Below, piece by piece: positions 211-38,923 of a DNA stretch of 55,042 nt. This DNA is from a virus. The translations under genes and the position numbers were made by a program. The notes under the pieces were generated by a model. That model worked only from the letters and a program-made list of their open reading frames with translations, had not been told where the DNA came from and did no database searches. The stretch is from IMG/VR virus record IMGVR_UViG_3300042908_001089, positions 1 to 55,042 of that record, one strand, 5' to 3'. How positions within the stretch are numbered: the first letter of the stretch is position 1; every line of letters starts with the position of its first letter.

Positions 211-327
211 CTTTAAACCCCTTTAAAACAAGCGTTTAACTCACATTCGATAGTCTTTAAACAAAACCTTGGCATTACCCTTTAGAAGTCCCATAATAGC
301 CATTAAGGGACAAGATTACCCCAGTAA

Positions 328-348
328 GGTAACCCAAACGGTAACCCA
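328..348. repeat. Right paired GGTAACCCA repeats (candidate integrase arm sites)
   Basis: Exact copy of the block at 33-53, lying just before the ATG at 362. If the recombinase began at the upstream TTG (269), this block would be coding. With the ATG start it is leader DNA, which fits a binding site better. Confidence 0.5.
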
Positions 349-361
349 AAGAGATGTAATA

Positions 362-1600
362 ATGGCATACATAGAACGAGTAATAAAGGCTCGGTGGATA
401 TTAAAGGGGAAAAGAGTACTGGCTAACACTCCGGGGGCAAAGAAGGTCTTAGAAAAGTCTCCGTTTTACTGCCTTGTTATTTGTTTACCTGGTCAAACAA
501 AACAGAAACGTATTTTAAAAGGTATTACTTCTAAAGAAGCAGCTTACCTTTATCTGCAACGGTATAACAAACAACAAGAAAACAAAAGTCTTGGTCTTCC
601 CTCTTTAAGGCCTGACTCTGAACACCATAAGATTGAAGCTTTGCTTGAATTATTTCTTAAAGGGTTTAAACGCGAGAGTCGAAGTGAGAAGCATGTCAAG
701 GCTGTAGGCTACCTGTTAAAAGATTTCTTTCGCCATCCTTCCTTCACCTTTCTTTCAGAGATCAACACTAATAAAGTTTTTGATTTATTAGATAAAAAAG
801 AATCAAAAACCGGAAATATTTGGTCGGCCACAACGAAGAATAAGTGTAGAAGATACTTGCAACTATTTGGGCAATGGTGCAAGAAAGAAGGTTGTTGGTT
901 AAAGAACAAGTTTAAAGCTATAGAAAGCTTTCGCGGGATAAAGGTAAAGGCTCGCAGACCTTTAACTATACTTCAAATCAAAAAGCTCATTCGAGCCACT
1001 ACCCTCCGACCTTTTTTTCAACGCAGTAGGACAGGTAAACTTCTTGGTAGAAGCTTTACTCCTAAGTACACTACTTACTTAAAGAACAAATCCCGTTGTC
1101 GAGCCTTACTTTACTACTACTTGTTTACTAGTGTGTCTCGTATAGGAGCTGCTTTAACACTTACCCCTCAAGATTTAGAGCTAGATGGGCCTTACCCTTG
1201 TGCTAACTTTGCAGCAGACAAGGTAAAGAAACGAAAAATTTTATCTAAACCTATACCTGTTAGTATGGCAACGCTTTTAAAACGCTGGATTAAAGAGCAT
1301 AAGATTAAAGCTAAAAGTAAAATTTTTGATTTAGGAAGAACTTTAACCCGTGATTTTCATAAAGACTTAGCATTTGCAAATATACCTAGACGCTACCCTG
1401 ACGGAAGCAGTATAGACATTCACGCTTTAAAGACTTCCGCCATTAGTTTTTTAGGGCAGAACGGTGTAGAAGGAAAGCTGTTACAAGACATTGGAGAACA
1501 TGATCAATTGTCTACTACTCATTCCCACTACCTTAGATTGAAGCCGGAGCAATACCAAGGAGTGGCTACGCTCTTTGAAAGCAAATTGTTTAAGCTTTAA
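362..1600 (+). CDS. int: Tyrosine recombinase (phage integrase)
   Basis: Site-specific recombinase expected to integrate the phage at a tRNA-Gln gene; 412 aa from ATG 362. The C-terminal catalytic domain is recognisable. The first Arg is in SRIGA (codon 1139-1141), the box II region is HALKTS (His 1421, Lys 1430), GEH follows, and the nucleophile Tyr is in SHYLRL near 1529. Box II is normally HxxR, so the Lys in place of the second Arg is unusual. The N-terminal part resembles an arm-binding plus core-binding arrangement. I chose ATG 362, which has AAAGAG about 9 nt upstream; TTG 269 would add 31 residues, has no visible ribosome site and would cover the GGTAACCCA repeats. The gene ends 11 bp inside the convergent methyltransferase gene. 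Confidence 0.88.
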   Translation: MAYIERVIKARWILKGKRVLANTPGAKKVLEKSPFYCLVICLPGQTKQKRILKGITSKEAAYLYLQRYNKQQENKSLGLPSLRPDSEHHKIEALLELFLKGFKRESRSEKHVKAVGYLLKDFFRHPSFTFLSEINTNKVFDLLDKKESKTGNIWSATTKNKCRRYLQLFGQWCKKEGCWLKNKFKAIESFRGIKVKARRPLTILQIKKLIRATTLRPFFQRSRTGKLLGRSFTPKYTTYLKNKSRCRALLYYYLFTSVSRIGAALTLTPQDLELDGPYPCANFAADKVKKRKILSKPIPVSMATLLKRWIKEHKIKAKSKIFDLGRTLTRDFHKDLAFANIPRRYPDGSSIDIHALKTSAISFLGQNGVEGKLLQDIGEHDQLSTTHSHYLRLKPEQYQGVATLFESKLFKL

Positions 1601-4168: not shown

Positions 4169-5173
4169 TTAAAAGTTCCAAGAAATCTTTTGTGCAGGGA
4201 AGCCTTGGAATTGAGATAGGGCGAACACTTCATCTCTACAGATGAAATCCATTTCTCTTTTCTTAATCCAAAACCCACCTTGAGGTTCGTTGTAATATCC
4301 TGCTGGGACTCCGTGAAGTGCTTTGCCCCAACTATTAAGAATGTAAAAAAGGTCTCCATGCTCAGGATGATCTAACCATCCAATGCAACACATTTGATGT
4401 CCCCATGAATCGTTTCTTCGTTGAACAACTCGTACTGGAGGAGTTCCAGAAACCTCGGGAGTCATAGGACTAAACCCAAACATAGAAGCACAAGTTAAAG
4501 GATAGTAGTTTCTTAAAGCAGCTTTTGCTTCTTCGGCTGTTCGTATTCTTGCGGTAGTTTTTACTAAGTGTTTGCGACTAAGCTCTAACCACTTAGAAGG
4601 AATAATGCTTCCTTTAGACCAATGTAACTCGGCTTCGGCTCCCCAAGTCAAACCATCTTTATCTACAGGCTGAGGTAAGCCTTCAAGATTAAAAGGAATT
4701 ACACCATCTTCAGCAATAGCTTTAGCTGCAGCAGAACCAAATGAACCTTCTCCATGGTTATCCATGTCTGCGTATAATCTAGATCGTCCGTAAGGTAACA
4801 ACCAAAACGGAAGAATGACTTGCTCAGGATCTTGTAAGCGATGAACTTCCACCGCGGATAAATACCATAAGGCTTGACCCAGCCCGTTACCTACGCAAGA
4901 GCCTGTTTGTTGGTGAAACACCGTAAAGTGTTTTCCTCCGTTAGCCTTTAAAGCAAAGTCCCATAAGAACGCTCGGTCTTTAGGTTCTTCTTCTCCTTCA
5001 ATAGCAAAGACTGGCATAGCTTTTTGATAGCTAGCGTCTTGTTCTTTTTGCTGTTCTGAACGCTGCTCAGGCGGAACCCAACCAAAGTTCCAATGGCTGT
5101 CTGCACCCATTATAGAAATGCGACCTCCAACACTTTTCAATTTGTCATACTCTTCGTTTGTATAAGAACTCAA
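4169..5173 (-). CDS. Papain-like (C1 family) cysteine peptidase
   Basis: 334 aa. The catalytic elements are GSC (Cys93), WGHQMCCIGW (His259) and ILNSWG (Asn280), in papain order and spacing. The segment before Cys93 is FHQQTGSC; by alignment, the position of the usual oxyanion Gln is His87, with Gln at 88 and 89, so the oxyanion hole may be altered. No signal peptide is seen. The start is TTG 5173 with AGGGG upstream, 1 nt after the previous stop. A C1 peptidase in a phage late block is unusual. It could be an endolysin cutting peptide cross-links, a virion-processing protease, or act on host protein. Confidence 0.85.
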   Translation of the reverse strand: MSSYTNEEYDKLKSVGGRISIMGADSHWNFGWVPPEQRSEQQKEQDASYQKAMPVFAIEGEEEPKDRAFLWDFALKANGGKHFTVFHQQTGSCVGNGLGQALWYLSAVEVHRLQDPEQVILPFWLLPYGRSRLYADMDNHGEGSFGSAAAKAIAEDGVIPFNLEGLPQPVDKDGLTWGAEAELHWSKGSIIPSKWLELSRKHLVKTTARIRTAEEAKAALRNYYPLTCASMFGFSPMTPEVSGTPPVRVVQRRNDSWGHQMCCIGWLDHPEHGDLFYILNSWGKALHGVPAGYYNEPQGGFWIKKREMDFICRDEVFALSQFQGFPAQKISWNF

Positions 5174-6704: not shown

Positions 6705-7460
6705 CTAAATCTTGATTAAGTAATTAACAACAACACATGGGGGTATTATAGCATGGCGACTATTGCTACCAGCAGAAGCATTAGATATTGATGGTGTAAA
6801 TGTATGTGTGTGGTCTAAAGATGCCGAATTATTAATCCCAATATTCTGCAAAGCAATATTAGAACCACCACCAGTAAATGTATATGGGGCAGATCCGCTA
6901 TTAGTCCAAGCTGCTCGATCAACAGAGTGATTATGAACCGTGTTTGCACTCATACCACTAGTAGTTCCACCGCTAACTGTATTTGCATGAGTATGACTGG
7001 CTAACTCTGCGGTAGTTAATAGATGCGTTTCTTCGCCAAACCAAGCACCTAAAGCTCTTGCGGTCATGGCCGTTCCAGAGGTCACACCCGTTCCAGAAGC
7101 ATTTAAACCTACGCCAGTTCCTGACCCCATTGGCAATCTACCTCTAAGGTCAGGTAGGTTAAATGTGGTAGACCCATTCCCAGTGCCGTAGGTTGTTCCA
7201 ATAGCAGAAAATAAGGAACTATAAGTAGTTCTTGATATTGCATCGCCATTAGCGAGTAACCAACCGCTAGGTGCTGTAGTTGTGACAACTCCCGCACTCA
7301 CTGTTTGAGTAGCTGTACCGGCATACATCTGCATCGAGCCAGCAGGTAATGCAGAAATAACTGTACCACCCACCCATGCCGTACCACTATAAACCCAAAC
7401 CTTATTATTATAAGTGTAGGTCTGGTTGATGGTTGGTGATGAAGGAAAATCTATTGGCAT
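6705..7460 (-). CDS. Tail collar domain protein
   Basis: 251 aa. It starts with the fibre-type lead MPIDFPSSPTINQTYTY and WVYSGTAWVGG. A phage tail collar domain follows, with SGWLLANGDAISRTTYSSLF, GTGNGSTTFNLPDLRGRLPMG and a Gly/Thr/Ser-rich His-containing body (ELASHTHANTV, NHSV, HTHTF). It ends in IPPCVVVNYLIKI, the usual end of this family. The His pairs may bind metal along a trimeric fibre, as in T4 gp12. Expected location is the tail tip. GAGGAAG precedes the ATG. Confidence 0.87.
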   Translation of the reverse strand: MPIDFPSSPTINQTYTYNNKVWVYSGTAWVGGTVISALPAGSMQMYAGTATQTVSAGVVTTTAPSGWLLANGDAISRTTYSSLFSAIGTTYGTGNGSTTFNLPDLRGRLPMGSGTGVGLNASGTGVTSGTAMTARALGAWFGEETHLLTTAELASHTHANTVSGGTTSGMSANTVHNHSVDRAAWTNSGSAPYTFTGGGSNIALQNIGINNSASLDHTHTFTPSISNASAGSNSRHAIIPPCVVVNYLIKI

Positions 7461-7827: not shown

Positions 7828-8847
7828 TTAGCTCCTATTAAAGATTGAGATGGTGTTGCTGTTTGGATTAACTGTGTAAACATTCGCATTATCGGTAGAG
7901 ATGCAGACCATCCTAGGAGATGAACCCGCAGCTATGGTTCCGGCTGAAGTTAAACCTCCAGTAACAATGTTTCTGGTATACATTTTAAGATGGTTGTCTG
8001 TCTGGCTAGACTCATAAACACTTTTCCCATCTTGGCTAATGGCTATACCTTCTGGGTATTGTCCTCCTGCAATGGTATTAGTGCCACTTAAAGCCCCAGT
8101 GCCCGTATTTCTAGTAAATATTGAAATAGTCGAATTATTATAATTTGCTGTATAAACATTGGCACCATCCGCAGAAATGCAAATGTCATAAGGCCGTCCT
8201 GTTCCTGTGGAAATAGTGCTAGTGCCACTTAAAACCCCAGTGCCCGTGTTTCTAGTAAATATTGAAACTGACTTTGCTCCAAAACTATAATTTGCTGTAT
8301 AAACATTGGCACCATCCGCAGAAATGCAAATGCCAGAAGTGGTCTGTTGAGTAGCTATGGTTCCGAGGCTAGTCAACGCACCAGTACCAGTATTGCGACT
8401 ATACATTGAAACTGTGGAAGCAGAGTTATTTGCAACATAAACGCTAGTACCGTCTGCCGAAATGCAAATAAAGATAGGATTTGTTCCCGATGCAATCGTT
8501 CCACCAGATGTTAATGCCCCAGTGCTAGTATTGCGAGTATAGATTTGGACTGTGTTATTTGTATAATTTGTTGCATAAACTGATGTTCCGTCTGTGGAAA
8601 TACAAATTCCCCATGGATTTGTTCCCGATGCAATCGTTCCATCAGATGTTAATGCCCCAGTGCTAGTATTGCGAGTATAGATTTGGACTGTGGCATTACT
8701 ATAATTACATGCGTAAACTGATTTTCCGTCTGTGGAAACGCACACCCCTAGAGGATAAGATCCAGTCGCTATTGTGCCCGCTGCCGTCAACGCACCAGTA
8801 AACACTCGGCCCCTACTCACACCCATGATTTTTCTAGAGATTGGCAT
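7828..8847 (-). CDS. YVTN/lactonase-type beta-propeller adhesin
   Basis: 339 aa from ATG 8847, which overlaps the previous stop as TAATG; the frame is open further upstream. About seven tandem blades of 45-47 residues repeat GTIASGTNPxGICISTDGxSVYxxNY and VQIYTRNTSTGALTS. This is the lactonase or YVTN seven-bladed propeller pattern. In a fibre operon it is more likely a binding head than an enzyme. Two blades are almost identical at the DNA level (8477-8554 and 8615-8692), indicating recent duplication. Confidence 0.82.
   Translation of the reverse strand: MPISRKIMGVSRGRVFTGALTAAGTIATGSYPLGVCVSTDGKSVYACNYSNATVQIYTRNTSTGALTSDGTIASGTNPWGICISTDGTSVYATNYTNNTVQIYTRNTSTGALTSGGTIASGTNPIFICISADGTSVYVANNSASTVSMYSRNTGTGALTSLGTIATQQTTSGICISADGANVYTANYSFGAKSVSIFTRNTGTGVLSGTSTISTGTGRPYDICISADGANVYTANYNNSTISIFTRNTGTGALSGTNTIAGGQYPEGIAISQDGKSVYESSQTDNHLKMYTRNIVTGGLTSAGTIAAGSSPRMVCISTDNANVYTVNPNSNTISIFNRS
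8477..8692. repeat. Direct DNA repeat inside the propeller gene, 138-bp period
   Basis: Positions 8477-8554 and 8615-8692 match over 78 bp with one visible difference (CCACCAG versus CCATCAG). The offset is exactly 46 codons, one propeller blade. A weaker second pair lies around 8070-8330. Near-identity in DNA, not only protein, indicates recent blade duplication or gene conversion. Confidence 0.75.
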
Positions 8848-9395
8848 TAGAAGTTCTGGCCTCCAATCATTGCGTACCAAGTTGTGCCAGCATCCCATGT
8901 TGTCAAAACAAATATATCTACTTTTGTACTCGTAGATGTCAGGGTTGGGGCTGTTCCGCTAGGCCATTTAACAGAAGCTGGCCAAGTCACAGCCCTAGCA
9001 GTGCCATCCATCGTGAAGGCTAAAGTGAGTCCGTATGCGGTTCCAGAGGCTGGAATATTGCTGAAAGTGATGCTTGTAATCGCTGCGTTGAGCGAAACAT
9101 GGAACACATTCCCGAGTGCACAATTTAAAGCCAACACACCACTGGCAATCGTTGGTGCAGTTTTTACTTCGTTTAGTCCAGAGATAGAGTTATTTGAAAT
9201 TTCAACCCATTGCGATGAGGTTCCATCATTTATATAGATTAATAAAGCTGCATTATTAGAATCAAACCACATGTCTCCTGGAGTAGGATTTATGGGTGGC
9301 GTAATGGACATAGTATAAACAAGTCCAGAAGACGGCCCTTGAAAGGATGAACCCTTTTTTGTTGTAGCCGGATTGTAATGAAACGCTCCTGGCAT
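8847..9395 (-). CDS. Tail-fibre or baseplate protein with beta-sandwich C-terminus
   Basis: 182 aa from ATG 9395 (MPGAFHYNPATT), which overlaps the previous stop as TAATG. Residues about 35-70 carry PINPTPGDMWFDSNNAALLIYINDG, a tail-fibre connector pattern. The C-terminal 100 residues (ITSITFSNIPASGTAYGLTLAF to TWYAMIGGQNF) form a beta-rich domain common at the end of phage structural proteins. It ends in GGQNF, whose GGAGG codons also serve as the ribosome site of the propeller gene. Confidence 0.7.
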   Translation of the reverse strand: MPGAFHYNPATTKKGSSFQGPSSGLVYTMSITPPINPTPGDMWFDSNNAALLIYINDGTSSQWVEISNNSISGLNEVKTAPTIASGVLALNCALGNVFHVSLNAAITSITFSNIPASGTAYGLTLAFTMDGTARAVTWPASVKWPSGTAPTLTSTSTKVDIFVLTTWDAGTTWYAMIGGQNF

Positions 9396-28444: not shown

Positions 28445-31400
28445 TTACTTATGCCCAGAACCTAATATGTATTCTGAGTATTCAAGTAGTGTAGATTTTT
28501 TTGCATTGCCTGCTTCAATCTTGGCTAAAGACTCAACCATGCGTCGCAATTCGTTTGAACGAATCTCATTTATCTTTTGTTCTAAGGGATCAGACTTTAA
28601 GGCTTCCACTTGAACGCGTCGATGAGCTTCTTCCACACCCATATAGCTAGGCTGAGATCGGAAGGACTGAAGAGACATCAGCAGGCCTTTCATGCCACCG
28701 CCTGTTTCAAAATCTTTTTTAGCTTTATCTTTATCTGTTTCTTTGGATGCTTTGGTGGTTTTGTTTTGATTTGCAAACCCTTGTTGCATTTGTTGACCGG
28801 AAGCATAATCTCTTAGCCTATCAACATGCTCGTCAGGTTTGTTAGGAGTTCCGCGAGAAGCTTGACCAGCTCTCCAAGTATTACTTAATATGCTTGCCAT
28901 CTCTGCTCTATTTAAATCCATCCCTTTTTCGTTGCCTTCTTTTTTTGCTTTGTGATATTGTTGTTCTGCTTGATTATAACTCTTTGCATAATTTTCTTTT
29001 TCAGCGTGAGATACCCCGTGTAAAGCAGGGTGATTAAGCATTGCATGCATAGGATGATCAGTTTTATTTAAGTCTTTATCGTAAACACTTGCTTTTGCAT
29101 ATCCTTTTTGAACTTTTTCATTAAACAAATTTGCCAGCTCGGGAGAAGAGTCGATTTGTTGTTTTGCGTATTCTTTGTTAGCTTCAAAATTATTTAATGC
29201 TCGAGCTTTATCTTCTTCTGTTTCTGGTCGTTTATCACTATCGTTGAGTGCTCGTTCTGTTTTTTCTTCTTCTTTTTTTGCAAAGTAATTTCCTAAGTTT
29301 TTTGTCATAGATAAGTTGGTTTTAAAAATAATATCAATTAAACCAGCAAATGCTTCGTAAACTAAACCTACTATTATTGTTGTTTTAGCTACAACCTTTC
29401 CAAAGGCTAAAGTGTTAGTTAAAGCAGGCCCCATCCATGAACCGCCCATACCCATAGCATCTGCTGCTTTGCCTCCCATCAAACCTGCAATTCCGTTTCC
29501 TACGGTATTAACAATACCATTCTTACCCATGGCAGCAATGGTTGCTCCGATAGCTACAGTTAAAGCCCATAACCCTTTAACGACTAAAGCAATAGGCGAT
29601 ACAATAAATGTAATGGCTTTTAATGCTAATGAAGCTCCTACAATACCTATTGACCAATAAGCTAAACTTTCTAGGGTGTCTCTTACTGCTGGAGACATAT
29701 TTTCAAACTGGCCCGCTAGCTGTTGGATATACCAAGAGAGTTTTAGCATAGGCGTCATAAAGGCAGAACCAATAGTCATACCTAAAAGAACTAAAGAGTT
29801 TTGAAACGTAGCAAACACATCAGGGGAAGAAAGTTGCGATAGACCCATTACGGCACCGGAAGCTGCAGTAGCCGTTACAAATAAGCCTTTGGCTAAAGAT
29901 CCAAAAGCATCTTTAAGGGCTCCTGACTGGCCTCCTATAACTTTAGTAAAATCTATTTCTTTTAATTTTGTATTAAGGTTTGTTCCTACTTTAAGAATAT
30001 TTTGACCAAAAGCTTTTACTTGTGCTCCTACATCTTTTAAAGATTTTGGAAAAAACGAAAGGGAGGCAGGGCTAGGAACTGGAAGAGGTGGAGGAAGAGT
30101 AGGCCCACCAGTAACTGGCTTTGATGAAATTGGTACACCGGGTGGAACAGGTGCAGGAATATCTTTGTAATTCTTAAACTCATCTAATACATTTTTTAAA
30201 ATATCTCGGATTGCTTTTAGCTCGTCTGAACTTCCTTGCATGTTGGTAGCATCGGCTGCAATTAGTTCATCCAGTTTACTAACCATCTCTTCTGTATAAG
30301 CGGTATCATCAGCGTATGTACCTGTCATAGCTGGTAAGCGGTCTATATCCATCTTAGGTTTAGTTGCAAATGCACCAGTACCTGTTGTTTCAAAAGGGGT
30401 AACATGTACACGAGATGCATGAGGGTTTGAGCTGGTTGTAGAAGACTTTGAGTTAGGCTTAAATCCAGCATAAGTCATGTTAGGATCTAAAGGGGTAATT
30501 TTGCTTGCGTTCGAAAAAGCATCAATGGCTTCATTAAAATCTGTATTGCTTCCCATTGTGCTAGTAGCGTTGGCAGCTTTTAATTCTTTTAACTTGGTAA
30601 TGTAATCTTCGGGAGTAGCATTGGGATTAGTGTTTGGGCTTAAGACATCTTTACCGTCTACCAAAAGGTGAGGCTGTTCTTTCCACGACTTATCAGAATT
30701 CATACTAAAAGAGGAAAGGTACGCTTTAGGCCCTGCAGGAGAAGTTGCGGAAGCTTTATCAGTTTGTTGTAAAGCAGCATTACTTGCTTCAACATCAAGG
30801 TCTTTTATTTTAGCTTGAGCATCTGCGATCATTGCAGTCATATCTGCAACATCAAGACTGTTATTATATTTTGCTGTAGTTGTAGAGTCTAAGTTTTTTA
30901 AATCTTCATCTCCAAGACCAGCATCCGCTAGTGCTTCATTATCACTTCGATTGTCTATTGTAGTTAATAATACCCTTGAGAGTTCGCTAATTAAAACTTC
31001 TAAGCGTCCGTAAGCTGTAGCATCAGAAGTAGCATCATGGGCCCCACGACCAGGATAAGTTTGACCAAAAAGGTTCATTAACTCTTCTTGTTTAAACCCA
31101 CCAGCATTTGCAGGGTTTATTAAGTTATTTAAAGCATCACGATTTAAGTTAAAGTTTTTAGCAACAGATTCTATTTCTTCTGCTTTAAATCCTTTTAGTA
31201 ATCTTTTGATAGAGGTTGCTGCTGATGTCATTGGGTCAATTACAGCAGGAAGTTTATTTTCCTCTGGCATCTGGCTTAAGCTAAGAGCATCACCAAGAGG
31301 TTTGTTAATAGCATTATTTGCAGCAGCAAAGTCAGCATTTATAACATTCTTACCAACTAACTTAGGGGCGGTAGGATCTTTATTAACAATAGCTTCTGTT

Positions 31401-32428
31401 ACTTTTTCTTTATCTGCAAATGCTTTTAACGCAAGAGCTGCATCATCAATAGAAACTCGATTGGTTTTTGCATTTTCGTTTTTTAACCACTCATCATGTT
31501 TGTCTTGAGTTGTGTTTCCTAGATTGTAAAGGTTCTCGCCAGTAGCTAATGCCGGTTTAATATCTTGAGTAAAAGTTTTTATTGCTTGTCCAAGTTCGTT
31601 TACCCCCACTAAAGATATTTGAGTTATGATTCGATTAGCTTTTTGATCTTTAGGGTCTAATAAACTTTGATCTCTTTGAGCTTTTACAGGGTCTAACTCC
31701 ATGCTCTTAAAAGCGTATTCTGTATCTAACACCCATTTTTTAATTACAGTATCGCTAGGGCCAGTAGGGGTACTAGTTCCCGGAACTGGTTTTTTTGCTT
31801 CTCTTTCTGCGTTTTCTTGTTTTGTTTTTGTTTCTAGATATGGTTTTTTTGTTTCTTCGTCGTTAACAAAATTAGGATTAGCTCTACGAATAGATAATTT
31901 ACTTAAGGCATCAGCTCGATCTTTTGCAAAATTTCTTCGTTCTGCTCGCTTAGCATAAAAAAGACCATCGTCTATTGCGGTTTTGTATTTGTTAACTCGT
32001 TCTTCTAGTCTTATTCTTTGGTCATTAATTTTTTTCAATCTGTTGTTGTAAGCAATATCTTTGTTTATGCGATCCCAATAAGCTTTGCTTTGTGCATTAT
32101 CAGCTTCTGTGTCTTGTTTTTTTCGAGCTCGGTTGGTTTCCCGAAGAGCATCAAAGTCTATTTTGTTTCCGTCTGCATCAGTACTTGAAGAGTTTTTACT
32201 TCCTTGAGGTTTGCCTGCATAGGCAAGACTACCATGAAGCATAAGCATTGCAGCGGTAACGCGTGAGGTTACCCCCAGCAAATGCTTCATGCTGTCTTCA
32301 AGACCGTGAAGAGCACCCGCCATTCGGTTTAGGGATTCACCAAACTCCCCAAAGCGATCCATGATTTTGCGAACAGCATCAAGACCGCTCCAAGGGGATT
32401 GAGAAAGTTTAGGTCTTGATCGTCCCAT
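28445..32428 (-). CDS. Tail tape measure protein with embedded DEDDh exonuclease domain
   Basis: 1327 aa. Length, helical content, a hydrophobic helix region (about 845-1040) and position after the tail chaperones identify a tape measure, which sets tail length and is ejected with DNA. Residues about 230-490 form a DnaQ-like exonuclease. Exo I is VLDTEYA (Asp235, Glu237), then IITQISLVGVNELG. Exo II is LVGKNVINADF (Asp366). Exo III is HDATSDATA (His464, Asp469). All five DEDDh residues are present. Residues 100-215 are a basic coiled coil, and a Pro-rich linker (760-790) precedes the hydrophobic part. The start overlaps the chaperone frame by 20 nt. Confidence 0.88.
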   Translation of the reverse strand: MGRSRPKLSQSPWSGLDAVRKIMDRFGEFGESLNRMAGALHGLEDSMKHLLGVTSRVTAAMLMLHGSLAYAGKPQGSKNSSSTDADGNKIDFDALRETNRARKKQDTEADNAQSKAYWDRINKDIAYNNRLKKINDQRIRLEERVNKYKTAIDDGLFYAKRAERRNFAKDRADALSKLSIRRANPNFVNDEETKKPYLETKTKQENAEREAKKPVPGTSTPTGPSDTVIKKWVLDTEYAFKSMELDPVKAQRDQSLLDPKDQKANRIITQISLVGVNELGQAIKTFTQDIKPALATGENLYNLGNTTQDKHDEWLKNENAKTNRVSIDDAALALKAFADKEKVTEAIVNKDPTAPKLVGKNVINADFAAANNAINKPLGDALSLSQMPEENKLPAVIDPMTSAATSIKRLLKGFKAEEIESVAKNFNLNRDALNNLINPANAGGFKQEELMNLFGQTYPGRGAHDATSDATAYGRLEVLISELSRVLLTTIDNRSDNEALADAGLGDEDLKNLDSTTTAKYNNSLDVADMTAMIADAQAKIKDLDVEASNAALQQTDKASATSPAGPKAYLSSFSMNSDKSWKEQPHLLVDGKDVLSPNTNPNATPEDYITKLKELKAANATSTMGSNTDFNEAIDAFSNASKITPLDPNMTYAGFKPNSKSSTTSSNPHASRVHVTPFETTGTGAFATKPKMDIDRLPAMTGTYADDTAYTEEMVSKLDELIAADATNMQGSSDELKAIRDILKNVLDEFKNYKDIPAPVPPGVPISSKPVTGGPTLPPPLPVPSPASLSFFPKSLKDVGAQVKAFGQNILKVGTNLNTKLKEIDFTKVIGGQSGALKDAFGSLAKGLFVTATAASGAVMGLSQLSSPDVFATFQNSLVLLGMTIGSAFMTPMLKLSWYIQQLAGQFENMSPAVRDTLESLAYWSIGIVGASLALKAITFIVSPIALVVKGLWALTVAIGATIAAMGKNGIVNTVGNGIAGLMGGKAADAMGMGGSWMGPALTNTLAFGKVVAKTTIIVGLVYEAFAGLIDIIFKTNLSMTKNLGNYFAKKEEEKTERALNDSDKRPETEEDKARALNNFEANKEYAKQQIDSSPELANLFNEKVQKGYAKASVYDKDLNKTDHPMHAMLNHPALHGVSHAEKENYAKSYNQAEQQYHKAKKEGNEKGMDLNRAEMASILSNTWRAGQASRGTPNKPDEHVDRLRDYASGQQMQQGFANQNKTTKASKETDKDKAKKDFETGGGMKGLLMSLQSFRSQPSYMGVEEAHRRVQVEALKSDPLEQKINEIRSNELRRMVESLAKIEAGNAKKSTLLEYSEYILGSGHK
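31000..31745 (-). other. DEDDh 3'-5' exonuclease domain within the tape measure
   Basis: Sub-feature of the tape measure gene. The codon for Asp235 of the DTE motif is at 31724-31726 and that for Asp469 of the HxxxxDA motif at 31022-31024. Motif order, spacing of about 235 residues and the strand after Exo I match the DnaQ fold. Known members remove nucleotides from 3' ends using two metal ions held by the acidic residues. Confidence 0.82.
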
Positions 32429-32804
32429 TAGGTGGCTCTTTTTTTAGAGGGTTAGGGTAAGGGTTGGAGTCAAGGTTCTGTTTGGGTTTAACTTTGGGTT
32501 GTGGTTGGGGTGGTGGTTTTGGTTTTTCATTTTTTAGTTCTTGTTGTTTCTTCCATAAGTCTTGAACCTGTTCTTCGCTAAGATTTCTCCACTCTTTGTT
32601 TACCTTCCAAAACAATTCTTTTTCTTCGTCTTTAGGGGCTTCTCCGGGGGCACCTTGATCTTTCATAAACCATGGTACTTCCGTAGTCTCTTCTTCTTTT
32701 TCCCTAAAGTACAAGTTTCGTACTTGATAGGGCGTAAGGTTGCCAATCTCCTCAATGCTTAAACAATAAGGTTCGCTTACAAGAGCGGAAAAAATTTCGC
32801 ACAT
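32409..32804 (-). CDS. Tail assembly chaperone, frameshift extension (gpT-like)
   Basis: 131 aa as a free frame from ATG 32804. Its -1 frame is open upstream into 32819-33253, past the slippery site at 32852-32858, so it is probably made mainly as the C-terminal part of a fused protein of about 281 aa. It is charged and Pro/Lys-rich (KPKPPPQPQPKVKPKQ), with LTPYQVRNLYF near the start. It lies directly before the tape measure and overlaps it by 20 nt, the standard position for the T part of tail chaperones. Confidence 0.72.
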   Translation of the reverse strand: MCEIFSALVSEPYCLSIEEIGNLTPYQVRNLYFREKEEETTEVPWFMKDQGAPGEAPKDEEKELFWKVNKEWRNLSEEQVQDLWKKQQELKNEKPKPPPQPQPKVKPKQNLDSNPYPNPLKKEPPNGTIKT

Positions 32805-32818
32805 TTTAGGCCTGGATT

Positions 32819-33253
32819 TTAGACGATGGTCGTAGGGTCCAGGCTCTCGATGTTTGGGTCGGAGTTCGCTTCCGATACCTTTGCCATCATTTCTTCCAAG
32901 CGTTCTTTCACAAGGTCATCTACAATGGCCATGGTAATATCTTTATGATTTACCCTAAGACATAATAGAAGTAGAACTCTGAAGTGAACCATGGTTGAAA
33001 TAGCTTTAGATACGGCTTCCCCGCCAAAAGAGTACGCTCCACTAGCAATGTCTTTATGTACAGAAGAAACTAAAGAACGGTACTCTTCTTCATTAAGGCT
33101 AGGCTTCATTAGCTTAACTTTTTGAATCGCATGTTCTTCAAGGTATCTTTCAAACTCTCCTTGAATTTTAAATGTCCAAGGAGAGCAAGTATAAGTTTTC
33201 CCTTGATATTCAAATATACTACCTAATCCTAATGATTTTGAAATTTCAGCCAC
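32819..33253 (-). CDS. Tail assembly chaperone (gpG-like)
   Basis: 144 aa. It is helical and follows the tail-tube gene, as gpG does in lambda-like phages: YQGKTYTCSPWTFKIQGEFERYLEE, then helices ending in MAKVSEANSDPNIES. Near the end, codons GAC CCA AAC contain the slippery heptamer CCCAAAC, and the -1 frame runs open into the next gene. The short form should coat the tape measure and the long form should recruit tube subunits, by analogy with lambda gpG and gpGT. Confidence 0.75.
   Translation of the reverse strand: MAEISKSLGLGSIFEYQGKTYTCSPWTFKIQGEFERYLEEHAIQKVKLMKPSLNEEEYRSLVSSVHKDIASGAYSFGGEAVSKAISTMVHFRVLLLLCLRVNHKDITMAIVDDLVKERLEEMMAKVSEANSDPNIESLDPTTIV
32852..32858 (-). promoter_or_regulatory. 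Programmed -1 frameshift slippery site
   Basis: On the minus strand the heptamer C CCA AAC sits in the right phase of the gpG-like frame (Asp132-Pro133-Asn134). A -1 slip continues CAT CGA GAG CCT and stays open for 16 codons to the ATG at 32804, then through the second frame. The fused product would be about 281 aa. Confidence 0.78.
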
Positions 33254-33266
33254 TAAGATAATCTCC

Positions 33267-34169
33267 TTATTTTAAGGGGCTGCTGGGTGGGGGTGATTTA
33301 GTTTCTGCAGTTTTTTCTAAAGGTGAAGCAGAAGCTTCAACTTTAACTTTAGCTGCATTTAGTTTAGCTTCTTCTTTTAAGAAGGCAGCTCTATCGTGTT
33401 CCAATTCTTTACCCTCAGGAGCAGCAGGGCTTGCTCCTGAGAAAGCATTTGGTTTTAAGTTAGGCTGTACAGAGTTTACTTCGTTGCCATATTCCGCAGG
33501 GATTACAGGAACAGAAGCAACTGTGTTGTACTTATTCTGCGAAGAGAAGGCAGGGCCATTATTGTAATTAACATCATCAAACGAAGGTAACCATAGGCCT
33601 GTGCTAAAGTATTCACCTTCGTAGCTAACTCCGCCTTGCTCTGTATCCAAAATGTACGGATCAGCAAAGCCACTAAATGTGTATTTTACTAAACCACGAA
33701 CTTCAGAATCGGTAGTAAGGTCACCAATTACTGCAGTAAATCGAAAACATTGTTCAGAAGGATTTCCTGTGCCTTCAAGACCGGGGGTAGCTCCTGCAGG
33801 CATGGTAGCTGCCGTAGTATCGTTAAGGCCCTTTTTAATGTATAGATCAATAACAGGACGAGAGCCAGGACGCAAGTCAGGAAAACCGTAAGGGTTTCCT
33901 TGAAGTGAGTCTGTGTCCCATAAAGCATCAATTGAAAATTCAATATCAGTTACACCACCAATGTAAGTCATCATTGGTGTAACAAAAGGGACGCGGGGAG
34001 CTTCGAAGGTAGTAGCATCAATCGCTTCAGTTTTATACGTAAACTGCCAACGAGTGGCAAACATATCAATGTAATTAGTAATAAAAGCGGTTCCTTCATT
34101 ACCTTGATTGTTTGGGTTTTTGTGTTGCCAAATTCTAACTCTTGAATTGTGTCCGGCTATTGCTGGCAT
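33267..34169 (-). CDS. Major tail tube protein, paralog 1 (with C-terminal extension)
   Basis: 300 aa. It is clearly related to 34219-34881: PAIAGHNSRVRIW/PAISGHNGRVLVF, RWQFTYKTEAIDATTFEAPR/RWQFSYKTELLETTTYENPR, FPDLRPGSRP/WPDLRPGSRP, FSSQNKY/FSSQDYF. The core of about 220 residues fits a beta tube subunit. The extra 80 residues are Ala/Pro/Lys-rich and probably flexible, like a decoration tail. AGGAG precedes the ATG. It is probably the main or the decorated tube subunit, just upstream of the chaperones. Confidence 0.75.
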   Translation of the reverse strand: MPAIAGHNSRVRIWQHKNPNNQGNEGTAFITNYIDMFATRWQFTYKTEAIDATTFEAPRVPFVTPMMTYIGGVTDIEFSIDALWDTDSLQGNPYGFPDLRPGSRPVIDLYIKKGLNDTTAATMPAGATPGLEGTGNPSEQCFRFTAVIGDLTTDSEVRGLVKYTFSGFADPYILDTEQGGVSYEGEYFSTGLWLPSFDDVNYNNGPAFSSQNKYNTVASVPVIPAEYGNEVNSVQPNLKPNAFSGASPAAPEGKELEHDRAAFLKEEAKLNAAKVKVEASASPLEKTAETKSPPPSSPLK

Positions 34170-34218: not shown

Positions 34219-34881
34219 TTAACCTGTAATAACATCTTGATAGAAATAATCTTGACTGGAGAATGGCATTCCACCGTTGTTGTCCGAAGGAAGAAAAGTT
34301 CCAGTACGCAATTCGTGATGACCACCAGAAGTGTTGGTAACATAAGGTGATGCTTTACCGGCTACTGTATAAGTGACAACACCTTTTACTTCGGTGTTAA
34401 CTACGCATTCGGTAATTAAAGCTACAAAATAAAAGTATTGTGAACCCGGATTCATAGCACCCATTTTACCACCGGGTTGGTCTGCCCCTGCTAACCTTGC
34501 ACTTGGTTGATTAATATGAGGGGTAGGTGAAACTTTGTTTAATCCTTTTTTGATTTCTAAACAAATAGCGGGGCGACTACCTGGTCGAAGGTCGGGCCAT
34601 CCAAAAGGATGAGAGTAAGTTACAACTGTATCCCAATATGCTTCAAAGCTAAAATCAATATCCGTTAGTCCTGCAACACGGGAAGACAAAGGAGTTACCA
34701 AAGGCGACCTTGGGTTTTCATAAGTTGTAGTTTCAAGAAGTTCAGTTTTATAACTAAACTGCCAACGATTAGCCATTAAAGCAATTGGTATTGCTCCTTG
34801 ATAATCTTCATCACCTTGGTTTTGAGTAACCTGTTGAGGAAAAACTAAAACTCTTCCGTTGTGTCCTGAAATTGCTGGCAT
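34219..34881 (-). CDS. Major tail tube protein, paralog 2
   Basis: 220 aa, the unextended relative of 33267-34169. The shared segments are spread over the whole length, so this is an old full-gene duplication. AAAGGAG precedes the ATG. Possible roles are two tube proteins used together (as with T5-like or two-subunit tubes) or one tube and one tail-completion ring. Sequence alone does not tell which. Confidence 0.72.
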   Translation of the reverse strand: MPAISGHNGRVLVFPQQVTQNQGDEDYQGAIPIALMANRWQFSYKTELLETTTYENPRSPLVTPLSSRVAGLTDIDFSFEAYWDTVVTYSHPFGWPDLRPGSRPAICLEIKKGLNKVSPTPHINQPSARLAGADQPGGKMGAMNPGSQYFYFVALITECVVNTEVKGVVTYTVAGKASPYVTNTSGGHHELRTGTFLPSDNNGGMPFSSQDYFYQDVITG

Positions 34882-37510: not shown

Positions 37511-38923
37511 TTACGCATTAACAAGGTTGTCACAAAGTACAAAGGATGCTTCATGGCGAGGTGCACCATCGGTGTACATAATGCCACGATACCACGTTTG
37601 GTCGGTCGTAAATGGTGTATCACCTTGGGTGCTGATTTGGAACTCGATTGCTCCACTCATCGCAACAAGGTAATCGGTGAAGTCACCACCAAGTACATAA
37701 GACAAGTTAGAAGCACTACCCTTAGTACGAGTACCACTAATTTGAGTGGACTTGTAGACAGGGTTGCCGTAAAGATTGCCAGGGGTAGCTCGGGTCAAAT
37801 CAATGTTCGCGTTCATTTCACGGAACATGTTAAACACGAATGGGCCCTTTTTATCTCCAGCGGTAACAGCGTCAGCTCGTCTATTGGAGATGGCTGCGTA
37901 CATTAAAGGACGCATTACAAATGCTTTGAACGAAGCATTTTGTTCTTCAACCTTGCCGATCATTTGAGCAATATCTTCAGGTTCTAAAGTGTTGCCGTTG
38001 GCAGCTACTGTAGAAGCTGTATGCCTTGTGATACCAGCGTAGTTGATAAGACCCTTAGGTTCGTTGCTTGAACCAGTTGCTTCAAGAAGCGACTTGTCCA
38101 ACCGCAGAGCCAGAACACGACTAATGTCTTCACGGAGGAACATTTCAACAGAGATAGAGCTGAAGCGAAATAGCTCATTAGGTACTTTGCAAAGAATGCC
38201 AAGTTTCTTGGCCTGCAAGAGTACATCCCCTGTTTCGGGTTGGGATTCCGTAATCGCATTGGATTCACCGACCCAGTAGGCAGTACCAGCGTTAGTTTGC
38301 CTTGGGAAGGTAATTCGGCCATTGGGTGGCATGGCTATAGTTCTGGCACCGGCTTGCATGAAAACTTCGTTGTTACGGAGTAGGTCAATAAGTTCACCTT
38401 GGACTGGAGGAGCAACAAGAGCTCCGCCTTGACCTTCGTCAATCCAAGATAAAGCTTTGGTCTGACCCCAATGTTTTTGACGGAGTGCAAACACTTCGTC
38501 ACGGTCAACACCGGATACACCGGCTTGAACTACTTGTTTCATTTCTCTTGCAAACCCTTCTTCACCGGGAATTTCCGCGATGTAGTCAGAGCCGAAGGGA
38601 GCCATGATAGTATTTGTTGAAGCCTTGTTGTAGCCAAGACGATCAACATAAAGGTTCTGAAGCTTCTTAGCGGTTTCCCATTCAACCCGAGCATTCTCAG
38701 GAGAAAGTTCACCACGAAGAAGACCGAAGAGTTTTACGAAGCTGTAGCCACGACTGGACATAGAATCTTCACCCTTGCGAACTGAAGGAGCTGCACCGGG
38801 TAGGTTGCCCCTTACAGATTTGCTAGAGGTTTCAATTTCTTCCAGCTTGGTCTGAAGCTTAGCTTGGTTGTCTTGAATGCCTTGAATAGCATCTAAAACA
38901 GGTTTGTTCTTTTTCTCTGCCAT
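37511..38923 (-). CDS. Major capsid protein, HK97 fold
   Basis: 470 aa. A helical N-terminal delta-like domain (about 1-40, AIQGIQDNQAKLQTKLEEIE) is followed by the HK97-family body. GGALVAPPVQGELIDLLRNN (about 165-185), a TIAMPPNGRITFPRQTNAG segment, AYWVGESNAITESQPETGDV, LCKVPNELFRFS, REDISRVLALRLDKSLLEATGSSNEPKGL and GNPVYKSTQISG are all in family order. The N-terminal part is probably removed by the protease encoded just upstream. Length from GGALVAPP to the end is normal for the family. Confidence 0.92.
   Translation of the reverse strand: MAEKKNKPVLDAIQGIQDNQAKLQTKLEEIETSSKSVRGNLPGAAPSVRKGEDSMSSRGYSFVKLFGLLRGELSPENARVEWETAKKLQNLYVDRLGYNKASTNTIMAPFGSDYIAEIPGEEGFAREMKQVVQAGVSGVDRDEVFALRQKHWGQTKALSWIDEGQGGALVAPPVQGELIDLLRNNEVFMQAGARTIAMPPNGRITFPRQTNAGTAYWVGESNAITESQPETGDVLLQAKKLGILCKVPNELFRFSSISVEMFLREDISRVLALRLDKSLLEATGSSNEPKGLINYAGITRHTASTVAANGNTLEPEDIAQMIGKVEEQNASFKAFVMRPLMYAAISNRRADAVTAGDKKGPFVFNMFREMNANIDLTRATPGNLYGNPVYKSTQISGTRTKGSASNLSYVLGGDFTDYLVAMSGAIEFQISTQGDTPFTTDQTWYRGIMYTDGAPRHEASFVLCDNLVNA

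Follow-up and report, generated by a model that had tools for sequence, protein, structure and literature searches.

A DEDDh exonuclease-like domain within the predicted tail tape measure protein of an environmental phage lineage

The window considered here is the whole of IMG/VR virus record IMGVR_UViG_3300042908_001089 (55,042 nucleotides). It comes from a phage that is known only from environmental DNA. An open reading frame (ORF) at 28445-32428 on the minus strand encodes a protein of 1327 amino acids (aa) that we identify as the tail tape measure protein (TMP). Our analysis establishes that this protein contains an exonuclease domain, that the domain is of the DEDDh superfamily, that it is conserved among relatives and that it is placed within the tape measure (Table 1).

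The initial annotation had already taken the ORF for a tape measure, and several independent grounds support that well. The G/GT arrangement of tail chaperones, as in lambda, precedes tape measure genes. A chaperone pair with a -1 slippery site lies upstream of the ORF, and genes for head-tail adaptors, capsid, protease and portal lie upstream of the pair. The -1 extension after the slippery heptamer is 99-149 codons long in each of 7 lineages. The tandem genes at 33267-34169 and 34219-34881 encode paralogous tail-tube-like proteins, as judged by inspection of their translations; the product of the former has no PHROG match. The window tape measure has no PHROG match itself. Among its relatives, the C-terminal part of the L034 protein matches phrog_794 and another A4 member matches phrog_1068, both of them tape measure families (partly Ala/Gly-rich sequence). 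The conserved frameshifted chaperone pair, the termini shared with relatives and these family matches are what point to a tape measure protein.

Table 1. Features of the tape measure locus in the window
Feature	Position	Strand	Basis
Tail tape measure protein gene with embedded exonuclease domain, 1327 aa, P0001 (predicted)	28445..32428	-	ORF list, context, shared termini
Residues 1-60, conserved N-terminal tape-measure module PKLSQxPYTGxEAVxKI	32249..32428	-	98% identity to L006; kept in 7 lineages
Residues 61-223, charged variable linker before the exonuclease	31760..32248	-	Helical by eye; 38% identity to L006, least conserved stretch
Residues 224-502, DEDDh 3'-5' exonuclease-like domain, RNase H-like fold (predicted)	30923..31759	-	Conserved columns, profile, AlphaFold2 and Foldseek
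Exo I motif WVLDTEYA (from residue 232; D235, E237)	31712..31735	-	D/E invariant in 6 tape measures
Exo II motif LVGKNVINADF (from residue 357; D366), assignment less certain	31328..31360	-	Kept in L006; parallels GKNAKGFD of L033
Exo III motif HDATSDA (H464, D469)	31019..31039	-	H, A, D invariant in 6 tape measures
Residues 932-1031, likely membrane-active hydrophobic segments in the C-terminal part	29336..29635	-	Kyte-Doolittle scan
Residues 1257-1281, conserved C-terminal tape-measure motif RSQPSYMGVEEAHRRVQVEALKSDP	28586..28660	-	Common to L006, L022, L033, L034
Tail assembly chaperone G-like gene	32819..33253	-	Directly upstream of tape measure in all relatives checked; overlapped by -1 frame
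Slippery heptamer C CCA AAC, -1 frameshift G to GT	32852..32858	-	In phase, identical in 7 lineages
T part of GT chaperone, overlaps tape measure gene start	32409..32804	-	Open -1 frame from G-like gene
Tail-tube-like protein	33267..34169	-	Position

Relatives were collected with the major capsid protein (37511-38923). This search found 20 related loci in IMG/VR, and 3 more were found with an alignment as the query. Their tape measures occupy the equivalent position in the tail cassette, downstream of the capsid gene. The L006 tape measure has 1307 aa and is 51% identical to the window protein (L007 and L008 are identical to L006 here). There are also giant relatives, with tape measures of 2594 aa in L033, 3134 aa in L034 and 3653 aa in L022, while those of L018, L015 and L016 are interrupted by contig ends. 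BLAST matches the large tape measures to the window protein over its first 50-170 residues only. They share its N-terminal module, and the C-terminal motif common to them has the form SSxEEAYKKIQVSALGxD. Hydrophobic segments are found by a Kyte-Doolittle scan at the same position in L006 as in the window, and the giant tape measures have similar ones in their C-terminal portions.

The initial annotation named five active-site residues in three motifs, and residues 235, 237, 366, 464 and 469 of the ORF translation are indeed D, E, D, H and D, in that order. It also described their spacing as DnaQ-like, which is not strictly so. Exo III has H-x4-D exactly as in DnaQ. However, the intervals are 131 residues between Exo I and Exo II and 98 between Exo II and Exo III, while those of E. 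coli DnaQ (D12/D103/H162) are about 91 and 59. Both inter-motif loops are therefore about 40 residues longer in the window domain. The family alignment leaves no doubt about Exo I and Exo III. The Exo II position reads FD in L018, L022 and L033, but YED in L034; the window has NADF, and D366 is kept in L006. This stretch has a low predicted local distance difference test (pLDDT) score in the structural model of the window domain, and forms a strand and a helix in that of the L018 domain. D366 as the Exo II aspartate is the least certain of our sequence assignments. It must be noted that the motif set is not significant alone: DxE..D..HxxxxD with loose spacing occurs in 35% of 2000 shuffles of the window protein, which is rich in D and E. 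Since the motifs are little proof in themselves and direct searches gave no match, the question has to be decided on the relatives.

Six divergent sequences (the window, L006, L018, L022, L033 and L034) plus two partial ones make up the exonuclease sample. The window domain is 61, 23, 20, 17 and 15% identical to the other five. Only nine columns are invariant in the six-sequence alignment, and four of them are the catalytic D, E, H and D. The full set is the D and E of Exo I, an I and a Q in strand 2, one A, an E before Exo III, and the H, A and D of Exo III. DnaQ has RIIEIG at strand 2, where this family keeps IxQ. When the family profile was aligned by hhalign to a four-sequence DnaQ/PolC profile, 166 columns were matched with a score of 42.6 (P=1e-5, probability 82%), and the alignment is collinear through Exo I, II and III. 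Decoys gave 13.3 (the reversed alignment), 13.9 (the major capsid protein) and 20.4 (the best of 200 column shuffles). A profile of the window and L006 only gave no signal in hhalign, which means that the result depends on the divergent homologues. Other profile evidence is weaker. With Pfam RNase_T against single sequences the window is below detection and L022 is at 0.17. An hmmsearch of the PDB with the six-sequence profile gave weak matches only, below or among unrelated proteins. These include 2p1j (PolC exonuclease, 0.38) and 8zef (DinG exonuclease, 1.8), and we do not use them as proof.

A search of related tape measures had been proposed with the initial annotation, and the domain is present in each one that can be read far enough. 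The family profile matches 10 of the 14 contigs tested, which are all ten that have a readable tape measure. Of the four without a profile match, L020, L021 and L024 have read stretches that stop short of the tape measure or close to it, and L026 is only a distant relative (23% in the capsid protein). The L015 tape measure is outside the profile and is found by it at 4e-8. The domain is N-proximal in every case, with start residues of 224/1327, 219/1307, 836/3653, 585/3134 and 212/2594. Among the enzymes predicted from sequence, the DEDDh exonuclease alone is shared by all readable tape measures of the lineage.

Structure prediction points the same way. AlphaFold2 gave a pLDDT of 67 and a predicted template modelling score (pTM) of 0.66 for the window domain, with the Exo II stretch uncertain, and a pLDDT of 73 and a pTM of 0.76 for the domain of the L018 homologue. 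Both models are of moderate confidence. The L018 model runs from three strands through helices to a strand, which is followed by a helix bearing FDTEI, one more strand and a helix at the C-terminus. The D-x-E of Exo I lies on the first beta strand in both. Searched against the PDB with Foldseek, the window model matches almost only DEDD exonucleases (best E 5e-3, prob 0.98), including CAF1/Pop2, DnaQ epsilon, RNase T, oligoribonuclease, DexA and TREX1. Against the BFVD viral models it matches DnaQ, RNase T and Exo VIII-type proteins, and none of the 50 matches listed is named a tape measure. The L018 model has 47 PDB matches at E<=1e-3 (best E 6e-6, prob 1.0). Those listed are all DEDDh enzymes (REXO2, oligoribonuclease, DnaQ, Pop2 and DexA).

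The initial annotation offered a profile and a structure search as ways to overturn its exonuclease. These instead gave a collinear match to DnaQ/PolC and fold matches almost entirely to DEDD exonucleases. Membership of the window domain in the DEDDh superfamily, with a predicted RNase H-like fold, is supported by the alignments and models together. The label "DnaQ-like" is better replaced by "DEDDh superfamily", since the closest folds are CAF1/Pop2 for the window domain and REXO2/oligoribonuclease for the homologue, not DnaQ in particular.

Selection was examined between the window and L006. Only the N-terminus is better conserved than the exonuclease, which has 61% identity versus 38-54% for the other parts of the protein. 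Its nonsynonymous divergence (dN) is 0.32, and that of the rest of the tape measure except the N-terminus is 0.43-0.61. Synonymous divergence (dS) is near saturation, and is much the same here as in the chaperone gene (1.20 and 1.18). With dS in that range, dN/dS is about 0.26 for the exonuclease and 0.03 for both the major capsid protein and the tape measure N-terminus. So the domain appears, from these comparisons, to be constrained yet quickly evolving. Because its dS equals the chaperone value, we reject a swap of the whole tape measure from a distant lineage; the gene did not arrive from farther afield.

Sister tape measures carry other modules. Pfam finds a staphylococcal-nuclease (SNase) domain at aa 1169-1265 of the L033 protein (7e-15) and at aa 1602-1701 of the L022 protein (3e-8). 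The SNase family is in the tape measure frame of five contigs, including the G009 contig at 85348-85665. When the L033 tape measure was the query against isolated-phage records, the SNase segment alone found matches. Neither the whole window protein nor the L018 exonuclease domain has a match in those records, and no relative was found in GTDB genomes by major capsid protein or integrase. L033 also has an HExxH motif, HESIH at aa 706-710, which is possibly that of a self-processing peptidase like those proposed for polyvalent proteins. L022 and L034 seem to have a segment related to this region without the first His. L022 has a zinc-ribbon-like CxxC...CxxC pair at aa 2019-2042. Its tape measure also contains repeats of 132 bp (44 aa) in tandem, at 8018-8680 in the helical N-terminal portion, and the number of these may tune tail length. 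Since sister tape measures add SNase and, in one of them, HExxH to the exonuclease, the latter looks like delivered cargo.

We argue that the most likely function of the window domain is that of an active DEDDh 3'-5' exonuclease that is packaged in the tail and delivered into the cell with the DNA, a reading we hold to be somewhat better than evenly balanced. Catalytic activity, tail packaging, cell entry and substrate are what we infer from sequence, models and other phages. The exonuclease would fold in the N-proximal part of the tape measure, between the variable linker and the membrane-active C-terminal part, and would be assembled with it into the tail lumen. The lambda tail tip holds the C-terminal helix of the tape measure, and the neck-tail channel is occupied by both the tape measure and DNA (PMC10721106). 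With the C-terminus at the tip, as in siphophage tape measures, an N-proximal exonuclease would sit on the head side, close to the genome's leading end. The tape measure would exit the tail when the phage infects, and its hydrophobic C-terminal segments would engage the membrane. The exonuclease would be the last of the tape measure to enter, just ahead of the DNA or with it. Inside the cell it would be a virion-delivered effector that degrades host 3' ends or short oligonucleotides, with RNA, nucleoid DNA and the nucleotides used in defence or signalling as candidate targets. A larger claim, to which we give not quite even chances, is that the tape measure is an injected multi-enzyme effector. 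It would combine a constant DEDDh domain with an exchangeable SNase, a possible zincin peptidase and a zinc ribbon, and would go ahead of the genome to act against host nucleic acids or nucleotide-based defence signals.

Several points weigh against a delivered, active exonuclease. Single-sequence searches with the window protein or its domain against Pfam, NCBIfam, PHROGs and the PDB gave no exonuclease match. That they miss the domain does fit its long insertions. The Exo II context is non-standard (NADF, not NxxFD), and model confidence is low there. SNase and HExxH were searched for in the window tape measure, and neither was found. A folded domain of about 28 kDa would have to pass the tail lumen, which may need unfolding, and delivery is a step that we infer from other phages.

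There are other scenarios to consider. The enzyme could be a virion factor for DNA ends that works on the phage genome where it leads, either inside the particle or during ejection. It would trim or unpair the 3' end there, or grip it so that the DNA follows the tape measure into the cell. The constant N-proximal position agrees with this, as does lambda, where gpH has its C-terminus in the tail tip and the neck/tail channel holds the DNA end (PMC10721106). Being kept in all readable lineages is also what one expects of a core function. However, unrelated extra enzyme modules such as the SNase of the sisters fit cargo better, and an SNase beside the phage's own DNA would be hazardous. It also does not fit that the exonuclease is fast-evolving next to the capsid protein and the tape measure N-terminus. 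We consider this scenario unlikely, and slightly more unlikely still is a catalytically dead RNase H-like domain that is a folded spacer or a nucleic-acid-binding module. Exo II has drifted to NADF in the window and YED in L034, parts of the domain are down to 15-30% identity, and tape-measure domains do count toward tail length in TM4 (PMC1796659). But the active-site D, E, H and D are among the sole columns kept in all six sequences, which would serve no purpose in a spacer.

A narrower form of the effector proposal is a hydrolase of nucleotide signals. It would be like oligoribonuclease (Orn) and would act on linear di- or oligonucleotides, clearing defence signals or the products of their breakdown. 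REXO2 and oligoribonuclease are the top folds for the homologue model, several of them with bound pGG, and the window model also matches Orn and RNase T. Yet the DEDDh families have one fold in common, and Foldseek rank therefore says little about substrate. The substrates of Orn are linear rather than cyclic dinucleotides, it usually works as a dimer, and the long insertions of the window domain are unlike Orn. We regard this specialization as improbable. Least probable of all is that the domain is a chance motif, or that assembly fused a nuclease gene with a tape measure gene. The frequency of the motif set among shuffles and the missing Pfam match are what one could cite for it. Chance is rejected on the hhalign decoys and the Foldseek result, since profile and fold scores are far above the decoys. 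Assembly fusion is rejected because the same in-frame architecture is present in independent contigs of several lineages.

A few genes elsewhere in the window deserve mention. A tyrosine-recombinase-type integrase (269-1600, plus strand; PHROG 7.6e-16) suggests that the phage is temperate. An ORF at 4169-5173 on the minus strand resembles a papain-like cysteine peptidase (GSCVGNG ... GHQMCCIGW) by inspection and has no PHROG match. In the distal tail region an ORF at 7828-8898 on the minus strand has YncE/lactonase-like beta-propeller repeats by eye, and a collar-like protein (6705-7460) is near it.

The window domain is like the known DEDDh superfamily (DnaQ/epsilon, the PolC exonuclease, RNase T, oligoribonuclease/REXO2, CAF1/Pop2, DexA and TREX1) in motif order and in H-x4-D. 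It is also like it in the beta-beta-beta-alpha-beta-alpha-beta topology predicted for the window family and in all of its top fold matches. It is unlike these enzymes in lying within a tape measure, in its loops that are about 40 residues longer and in its identity of about 15-20%. The relative G004 has a separate DnaQ-like exonuclease gene, P0002 (L037 7755-9068), which encodes 437 aa with an RNase_T match at 4.5e-24 and PDB matches; a C-terminal stretch of the protein looks BRCT-like by eye. This stand-alone exonuclease is of the same superfamily but outside the tail genes, and no detectable similarity marks it as the source of the tape-measure domain.

Tape measures that bear enzymes are known. 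That of mycobacteriophage TM4 has the Mt3 peptidoglycan hydrolase (PMC1796659), and enterococcal phage tape measures carry lysins (PMC10194240). The likeness is an enzyme domain within the tape measure, and these enzymes are in the virion and thought to act at entry. Their target is the cell wall, whereas the window domain is predicted to be a nucleic-acid exonuclease. Our literature search, which covered few subscription papers, turned up no tape measure reported to contain a DEDDh exonuclease. A conserved exonuclease, with a second nuclease in some relatives, suggests that tails deliver intracellular enzymes before phage genes are expressed. This makes a post-entry role of the tape measure testable, and it offers a route to counter-defence or host takeover before expression. 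If the multi-enzyme reading is right, tape measures would be a general vehicle for intracellular enzymes and not only for those of the cell wall.

The polyvalent proteins, found in phages and conjugative elements, are another point of comparison. They are very large, combine many domains, nucleases and zincin-like peptidases among them, and are predicted to be injected together with the DNA (Iyer et al. 2017, PMC5512222). None of the terms tape measure, DnaQ, DEDD and SNase occurs in that paper, and none of the Pfam polyvalent-protein domains (MPTase-PolyVal, LPD etc.) is in the window or sister tape measures. The sister tape measures resemble polyvalent proteins in combining DEDDh, SNase and an HExxH motif. 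The difference is that here the carrier would be the tape measure itself.

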